From Hypericum androsaemum (Eukaryota; Streptophyta; Magnoliopsida; Malpighiales; Hypericaceae): DNA of 64,000 nucleotides. The stretch's first letter is position 1. Each line of letters starts with the position of its first letter. The DNA lies in the NCBI GenBank assembly GCA_963995505.1, contig OZ023181.1:9027487-9091486 (forward strand), given 5' to 3'. Position numbers and translations under genes: made by a program. Below, piece by piece: positions 21,779-23,631 of the stretch. A model generated the notes under the pieces. The model made no database searches. It was given only the letters and a program-made list of their open reading frames with translations, and was not told the DNA's origin.

Positions 21779-23631
21779 TTAAATGAGAAGGCGAAACCTC
21801 GGAATAGCAACAAGATGCTTCGCCCTTGACATTACGAGGCCAAATTCTTCTGCCATGTCCAATTCAGATGGAGCCATTCCATCTGGTAGCTCCCAATCAA
21901 AGCAATGCACTAGTTGTGCCACAACGTGACCAACCACGGTCAAACCCAGATTCATTCCAGGGCAGCTTCTACGTCCAGCACCAAAAGGTGTTAGCTGAAA
22001 ATCACGCCCACTAACGTCTATACTGTTACTTTCGAATCTTTCCGGCAAAAACTTGTCAGGGTCGAACCAAACACTCGGATCGTGGCCGATCGCCCATAGA
22101 TTGACGAGAACCCGCGAGTTTTTGGGAATGAAGAAGTCCTTGACAGTGAAATCTTCCATGGATGCGTGGATCAGTATTGGTGCTATGGGGTGGAGCCTCA
22201 GAGTCTCCTTTACCACCATCCATAAGTATTTCAAATTCTCCAAGTCTAGTTCGTCAACCGTTCTGTTAAGTCCAACCTTTGATTCCAACTCCATTCTTAA
22301 CTTCTCCATTACAATAGGATGCTTGAGAAGTTCAGAGAGTGTCCATTCTATCGCCGACCCTGAAGTATCCTCGGATGCTGCGAACATGTCCTGCAAAATT
22401 AAGACGAAAAGATTACGATATTGTACATTTGCAGCTACCGATGTAATAATCTCGGGTTCTTACCAACATCAAAGCTTTAACACCGCCGCGATCAATCTGA
22501 TATTCTGAACTCTCAGATTCCATGATGCTTAACATAACATCAACAAAGTCTCTGCTTCTCGTCCTCTTGTCACTATCTCCACTTGGAAGATGCTCATCAA
22601 TGATCCTCTCCAGGAAAATGTCAACAACCTTGCTCACTTTCTTCATCCGCTTCCTAAGTCCCTGAAGATCAAAATGGCCAGCAATGGGAACAAAATCCGA
22701 CAAATTCGGAACCGCGGCGACTTGCGAGATCTCCTGCATTACGGCCTTAAACGACGTCGGATCCTCGCCACCAAGATCCGTATCGCTGTACTTCTTCCCA
22801 AATATCATCCTGCAGCTCATATCCGCGACAAAGGACGAGACTTTCGCGCTGATATCAACAGCCAGTCGGTCCGCGGAAGCCTCCTTGATCAGCTGCACCA
22901 GAAGGCCAAGCTCCTCCTTTCTCATAGACAAGAAAGAGCTGACCTTTTTGTATAAGAAAAAATTATGTTTAATTATTACTCCATGAAAGTCTACAACAAA
23001 CAAACTGTTGTGGATAAAATATAGACATCACGCAGAAATGGATATTTCTACATCTTTGTCTAATCTTTTTATAACTTTTGAAATCATGTCAATCAAATAC
23101 TTGAGCAGATAGTTACGATTATTTTACCGACATAAAGTCGATAAATCCGCAAATTAATTTTCCACTCCCACACAGACATAAAGAACATATGAGCTGACCT
23201 ACCTTGTGGTTGCTAAGCAACTCGAGCGTGCAGAGCTTGCGAATGTTCCGCCAGTAGGGGCCATAGGGGCCAAACACCAAGTTCTTCTGGCCGTAGGAGA
23301 TGAGCCGGGCTGCCTCGAGCGGCGGCCTGCTGGCGAAAACAAGGTCGTGGGTCTTGAGGAACAGCTCGGCCGCTTCGGGTGACGAAGCCACGATGGTGGG
23401 TACCTGGCCTAGCCGGAGGTGCATGATGGGGCCGTACTTTTGTGCGAGCTTGTGCAAGTCTCGGTGAGGAGACTTTCCAAGTAGATGGAGGGAGCCCAGA
23501 ACAGGGAACCCAGTTGGACCAGGAGGCAGTCTTTTGCCTTTGGTGTTTCGTAGGTGTTTGGATGCTGCTAGGAAGAAGAAGGAGACGACAGAGATCAGCA
23601 CAAGGATGGTCGTCCATGGGATCACTTCCAT
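21779..23631 (-). CDS. Cytochrome P450, CYP71 clan (CYP736A-like), complete, three exons
   Basis: Exons are 23,631-23,203 (143 codons), 22,943-22,464 (160 codons) and 22,390-21,779 (203 codons plus stop); all junctions are phase 0 with GT-AG ends, giving 506 residues, normal for the clan. Visible in order: N-terminal membrane anchor, hinge LPPGPTGFPVLG, WRNIRKLCTLELLS, I-helix FAASEDTSGS with the oxygen-binding Thr, the ExxR motif in KETLRLHP, PERF, and the haem-cysteine loop FGAGRRSCPG. It is an ER monooxygenase with NADPH-P450 reductase as partner; the substrate is unknown. The last intron is at the usual clan position. The first intron is extra: the paralogue at 81-950 reads straight through this point. 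No disabling change seen. Confidence 0.95.
22944..23202 (-). other. Intron 1 of the P450 gene, repeat-derived and flanked by a direct repeat
   Basis: 259 bp with donor AAG|GTAGGT and acceptor AAAAAG|GTC. The 10-mer GAGCTGACCT (plus strand) occurs at 22,936-22,945 and again at 23,191-23,200, bracketing 245 bp. The interior from 23,044 to 23,175 aligns without gaps by eye to 20,123-20,254 at roughly three quarters identity. Both facts fit an inserted element acting as a new intron. Confidence 0.75.

Follow-up and report, generated by a model that had tools for sequence, protein, structure and literature searches.

Organization of the P450 locus

On its minus strand, the window that we analyzed (the whole 64,000-nucleotide stretch of Hypericum androsaemum DNA) contains a P450 gene of three exons that runs from 23631 to 21779 and encodes a protein of 506 aa, as well as a P450 paralogue close to the start of the window. 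The p450 domain of the three-exon gene is complete (E = 7.5e-100, positions 1 to 456 of the 462-position profile), and, judging by this domain and by best similarity, the gene is a CYP736/CYP71AU50-like P450. Its relatives bear names such as CYP71AU50-like and CYP736A12-like and are mostly 60 to 65% identical to it, based on the best 120 of 2633 matches. The features of the two genes are as follows.

23203..23631, minus strand: P450 exon 1 (codons 1 to 143)
22944..23202, minus strand: intron 1, the candidate gained intron, 259 bp, GTAGGT...AAAAAG, phase 0
22464..22943, minus strand: P450 exon 2
22391..22463, minus strand: intron 2, 73 bp, phase 0, before DMFAASEDTS
21779..22390, minus strand: P450 exon 3 and stop codon
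51..950, minus strand: P450 paralogue, open straight across the position of intron 1

Intron 2 is presumably the usual intron of A-type P450 genes. Intron 1 has a GC content of 29.7%, whereas the three exons have GC contents of 57.3, 48.3, and 46.7%. Over 288 codons shared with the paralogue, dN was 0.30 and dS was 2.02, with dS being near saturation; given these values and the 506 open codons, the gene does not resemble the remains of a long-dead gene.

A PPR5/At4g39620-like PPR gene was also observed in the window, at 58068-59264. By their locus names, a P450 gene and a PPR5-like gene appear to lie close together in Jatropha (JCGZ_09372/09374), Crotalaria (RIF29_42361/42362-42364), and Dipteronia (Ddye_008975/008973), and among the matches listed for Mucuna, each of the two genes is on a contig with a length of 103,831. 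The P450 locus is probably an old, conserved place.

Ty1/copia-like retrotransposon ORFs were recognized by eye on the minus strand at 2624-6268, and a large imperfect palindrome occupies 8712-13531, with arm pieces that are 79 to 95% complementary, a spacer at about 11.06-11.37 kb, and more partial copies at 14.7-16.8 kb. The region at 35400-48600 contains pararetrovirus-like ORFs, which we take to be caulimovirid-like, in direct and inverted copies that are 97 to 99% alike, and this arrangement suggests a recent, rearranged integration. Tandem arrays with a 22-bp unit and an 83-bp unit lie at 29921-30272 and 51010-52221, respectively, and the inner copies of the latter are 100% identical.

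Intron 1 interrupts a position that is continuous in the paralogue

Intron 1 lies in phase 0 between K143 and V144. The initial annotation had placed an intron at 22944-23202 where the paralogue reads through, and this description was borne out, since the paralogue ORF (51-950) reads SKINSF without interruption at the same point. We aligned the spliced product with the paralogue and 110 relatives, for a total of 112 rows including the query (from 120 listed matches, 10 with lengths outside 470 to 560 aa were left out). None of the 112 rows was gapped within 6 residues of the spliced junction, although intron positions are invisible in protein alignments. The residues at the junction are KI in 103 rows, KV in 6, and KT in 3, with the present gene having KV (AAG GTC). 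Intron 1 has GT-AG ends, and its removal gives the family alignment back exactly.

These observations suggest that intron 1 is spliced out, based on the open 506-codon frame, the dN/dS values, the GT-AG register that restores the protein, and the AT richness of the insert. They also bear on the alternative that the insert is not spliced and that the P450 gene is a recently disrupted pseudogene. In agreement with this alternative, the unspliced frame ends at a stop at codon 171, and the acceptor is weak by the usual consensus: a pyrimidine is usual at -3 of an acceptor, and the AAAAAG of intron 1 has none there, a feature that counts against the gained-intron reading as well. However, the GT-AG register yields the exact protein in all 112 rows, all 506 codons are open with a full p450 domain, and the insert is AT rich among GC-richer exons, so we regard a disrupted pseudogene as hardly likely at all.

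If intron 1 is spliced, it is likely a gained intron rather than an old one, and its absence would be the ancestral state. The opposite reading holds that intron 1 is old and was lost from the paralogue, that a repeat was inserted into it later, and that the repeated 10-mer at its borders (see below) is coincidental. Published gene structures point both ways. In grape, CYP736B has two exons and a single intron, which may argue against an old intron 1 (PMC3095286). Soybean genes of most A-type P450 families carry one or two introns, but one CYP736 member has five, as an old additional intron would allow (PMC9048032). The available text of the sandalwood paper does not give a CYP736 gene structure (PMC10235099). 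Given that the paralogue lacks intron 1 and given the border repeat described next, we consider an old intron decidedly unlikely.

A 10-bp direct repeat and an additional AGGT at the intron borders

Three features mark the borders of intron 1, and they are listed below; the slash in AG/GT stands for the splice junction.

23191..23200, minus strand: 10-bp direct repeat AGGTCAGCTC, copy on the donor side, covering positions 3 to 12 of the intron
22936..22945, minus strand: acceptor-side copy of AGGTCAGCTC, across the 3' splice site
23197..23204, minus strand: tandem AGGTAGGT at the donor, consisting of the exon-intron AG/GT and then the first four bases of the 10-mer copy, AGGT

As the initial annotation had noted, the same 10-mer, GAGCTGACCT, brackets the intron at 22936-22945 and 23191-23200, and it has no other site in the window. 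When the window was shuffled, the 10-mer occurred 0.10 times on average, and at least two occurrences (the observed number) were found in 3 of 100 shuffles. We also simulated intron borders with a Markov model in which the splice dinucleotides were held fixed; an exact direct repeat of at least 10 within 20 nt of both splice sites arose in 35 of 20,000 simulated borders (P = 0.00175). The support that this value lends to a duplication is good but not overwhelming, and it argues against the coincidence on which an old intron depends. Nevertheless, ordinary introns often have such border repeats as well: in Drosophila, repeats of at least 5 bp were reported at the borders of 26 of 100 conserved introns and 19 of 77 gained introns (PMC3296678), and a survey found border repeats, mostly imperfect ones, in all 213 introns examined (PMC11782384). 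Since short direct repeats are therefore not specific to gained introns, their frequency favors the old-intron alternative and counts against the gain reading.

The two borders differ in one respect. The donor side reads CACA-AGGT-AGGTCAGCTC, whereas the acceptor side has the bare AGGTCAGCTC; the four extra bases reported in the initial annotation are thus present, and a tandem AGGT describes them best. A clean event would be expected to leave the donor AAG/GTCAGC, but the actual donor is AAG/GTAGGT. Relative to the plant donor consensus, GTAAGT, the latter is nearer at +3 and +6, though not at +4. The extra AGGT creates the donor GTAGGT and also places another potential donor 4 nt further downstream, use of which would shift the reading frame. 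It also demands a second step, either during repair or later by slippage, and this need counts against the gain model. Since the G that completes AG/GT is found in both copies of the 10-mer, it would predate the insertion under the insertion reading.

The DNA between the 10-mers and its relative at 20 kb

The insert between the two 10-mers is composite, and part of it has a similar copy near 20.1 kb.

23017..23175, minus strand: repeat-derived block, 159 nt, with a coding-strand start at (C)TGTGTGGGAGTG that is LTR-end-like
22946..23016, minus strand: insert segment of 71 nt next to the acceptor-side 10-mer, no source traced
23176..23190, minus strand: insert segment of 15 nt next to the donor-side 10-mer, no source traced
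20097..20254, minus strand: other copy of the repeat block, at the edge of a possible LTR of ~569 bp

The resemblance of 130 bp of the intron interior to a repeat near 20.1 kb, proposed in the initial annotation, was confirmed when 22900-23250 was compared with the window by BLAST (23046-23175 versus 20125-20254, 75% identity over 130 bp, E = 6e-21). Gapped alignment widened the match to 23017-23175 versus 20097-20254, with a score of 141, whereas none of 200 shuffles exceeded 61. Of the 245 nt that separate the 10-mers, 159 belong to the block, whose ends fall short of the two repeat copies by 15 and 71 bp. For these 15-nt donor-side and 71-nt acceptor-side parts, no trusted match was found in the window, which counts against the gain model. 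The wholly internal position of the block, off both borders, is also what a later insertion into an old intron would produce.

One edge of the block, TGTGTGGGAG, is sharp and common to both copies, reading (C)TGTGT(G/T)GGAGTG on the coding strand. Beyond the block, the 20-kb copy runs into unrelated sequence rather than into the same element ends. In the 20-kb copy, positions 19685-20253 can tentatively be delimited as a TG...CA unit (~569 bp), and the sharp edge may, equally tentatively, represent an LTR end. Within 15.0-20.25 kb, the range searched for the 5-bp duplication of a solo LTR, there was no GGGGT-TG and a single out-of-register GGGTG-TG at 19741. None of the six minus-strand ORFs at 17.2-19.2 kb matched retrotransposon Pfam families, and one of them had a sub-threshold match to DUF5523; the 20-kb copy might be non-autonomous or have lost part of its length. 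Three scans of viral contigs for exact matches to the repeat sequence found none. In addition, a tandem pair with a 176-bp unit at 32422-32773 resembles the 20-kb repeat around AAACTACAAAGTTGTA, and its similarity to intron 1 is not above that of shuffles.

Other candidate sources of the intron were set aside. A tandemly duplicated piece of exon does not explain it, as exon sequence is absent from the intron body, whose sole strong BLAST match elsewhere in the window is the 20-kb repeat. We also asked whether repeats within the intron point to additional breaks, but the longest of them (CTTTATGTC, found at positions 20 and 66 of the intron) was no longer than expected by chance in 2000 simulations (P = 0.283). 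A 28-bp match between the intron and 25616-25643 (E = 1e-4) is AT rich, and the intron scored 58 against 25.5-25.8 kb relative to a shuffle mean of 61.

Candidate mobile-element origins for the insert

The initial annotation had interpreted intron 1 as a transposon that became an intron. Our results support one part of this proposal, a repeat-derived insertion whose target duplication supplies the splice context, but not the other, clean transposition, since the block stops short of the 10-mers. In its strict form, the proposal would be that a non-autonomous DNA transposon (a Mutator-like element or one of another group) entered the exon in full, duplicated 10 bp of its target, and became an intron by means of the AG/GT located there. 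Mutator-like elements are expected to have inverted ends and to produce target duplications of 9 to 11 bp. The 10-bp duplication at the borders fits this length, although it is offset by the extra AGGT, and the body is partly repeated at 20 kb. The specific suggestion of a Mutator-like insertion nonetheless lacks support, because no terminal inverted repeats rose above shuffles: for the outer 30, 60, and 122 nt, 601, 455, and 949 of 1000 shuffles, respectively, scored at least as high as the insert. The block also leaves gaps of 15 and 71 bp to the 10-mers, with its 20-kb copy continuing into unrelated sequence. A model of insertion into AGGT has been published (PMC3443670), but a complete DNA transposon appears unlikely here.

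A second possibility is that an RNA copy carrying an LTR end was retroposed by LINE-type target priming, with a 10-bp duplication and a short A-tail, and then became an intron. LINE-type insertions have duplications about 10 bp long, and the coding-strand end of the insert is ACAAAA, directly before the acceptor-side 10-mer. In contrast, the A-run is just 4 to 5 nt, no purine tract occupies the 15 nt ahead of the LTR-like edge, and a search of Rfam gave nothing above threshold, and hence no known RNA family, at 19000-24000. We judge retroposition to be very improbable.

Clean transposition of an LTR element would leave flanking duplications of 4 to 6 bp (PMC3281118), and the 10-bp duplication at intron 1 argues against it.

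Repair of a staggered break as the proposed explanation

We favor, as probably but by no means certainly correct, a lineage-specific intron gain in which the repair of a staggered break captured a repeat fragment at an AAG/GT site. Given that the insert lacks inverted ends and that the block falls short of the 10-mers, we infer that the insertion was made by break repair and not by a transposase. Intron 1 combines a short direct repeat at its borders with an insert that lacks element ends, a pattern that is suggestive of break repair but not exclusive to it. A staggered break with filler would explain how a 10-bp duplication came to surround an insert of mixed origin, and such repair fits better than clean transposition.

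According to this model, an ancestral exon reading CAC AAG GTC AGC TCT TTC would have been broken at AGGTCAGCTC, with the two cuts staggered by 10 nt. Approximately 245 bp would then have been inserted, including a fragment that starts at the apparent end of an LTR-type repeat, and fill-in of the stagger would have duplicated AGGTCAGCTC on both sides. Since the duplicated target contained AG/GT, the left copy could serve as donor and the right copy as acceptor, such that the original protein would have been kept. A 4-bp duplication of AGGT at the left copy, during repair or later, would have converted AAG/GTCAGC to AAG/GTAGGT. We are more doubtful of the full chain in which an AAG/GT codon pair, a 10-nt break, and LTR-end filler left the protein unchanged, the donor-strengthening AGGT was selected later, and the tandem donor yields a measurable frameshift isoform; this combination is possible but rather improbable.

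Relation to known intron gains

Both transposon insertion into AGGT and break repair have been published as models of intron gain, and a 2012 review table for eukaryotes attributes 35 introns to the insertion of transposons, compared with 5 for break repair (PMC3443670). In Daphnia, neo-introns have been attributed to insertion at staggered breaks, with 33 repeats of 4 to 12 bp shared with one exon (PMC4202315). Like these neo-introns (PMC4202315, PMC3443670), intron 1 consists of an AT-rich insert with a short flanking direct repeat, one copy of which lies in the adjacent exon; it differs from them in its plant host, in a filler that is partly traceable to a repeat, and in the extra 4-bp donor duplication. 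Intron 1 shares with the transposon-into-AGGT model a duplicated AG/GT that would give both splice sites and leave the protein unchanged, but no element ends occur at its duplications (PMC3443670).

Other systems resemble intron 1 in part. The Drosophila Doc1053 intron, which arose by transposon insertion, is 99% element, and unlike here, five residues were added (PMC3296678). Two of five introns gained in rice duplicates are transposable-element-like (one Ty1-copia-like and one Rim2-like), in keeping with the repeat-derived block of intron 1, although the excerpted account does not describe a flanking duplication or the origin of the splice sites (PMC1779517). Some introners, such as those of Florenciella, take both splice sites from the insertion site, as we propose here, but introners form families of similar introns, whereas a single case was observed here; a survey of 3,325 genomes reported none in land plants (PMC9860276). 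In the open-access literature, we found neither a report of intron 1 nor, among the titles listed, one on intron gain in a plant P450. We regard intron 1 as a new case of an already established type of event.

Introns with an origin that can be read from sequence are few. If our reading is true, this plant case would show how a coding exon can take up an insertion without any change to the encoded protein, with a duplicated AG/GT serving as both splice sites and the donor being adjusted later.
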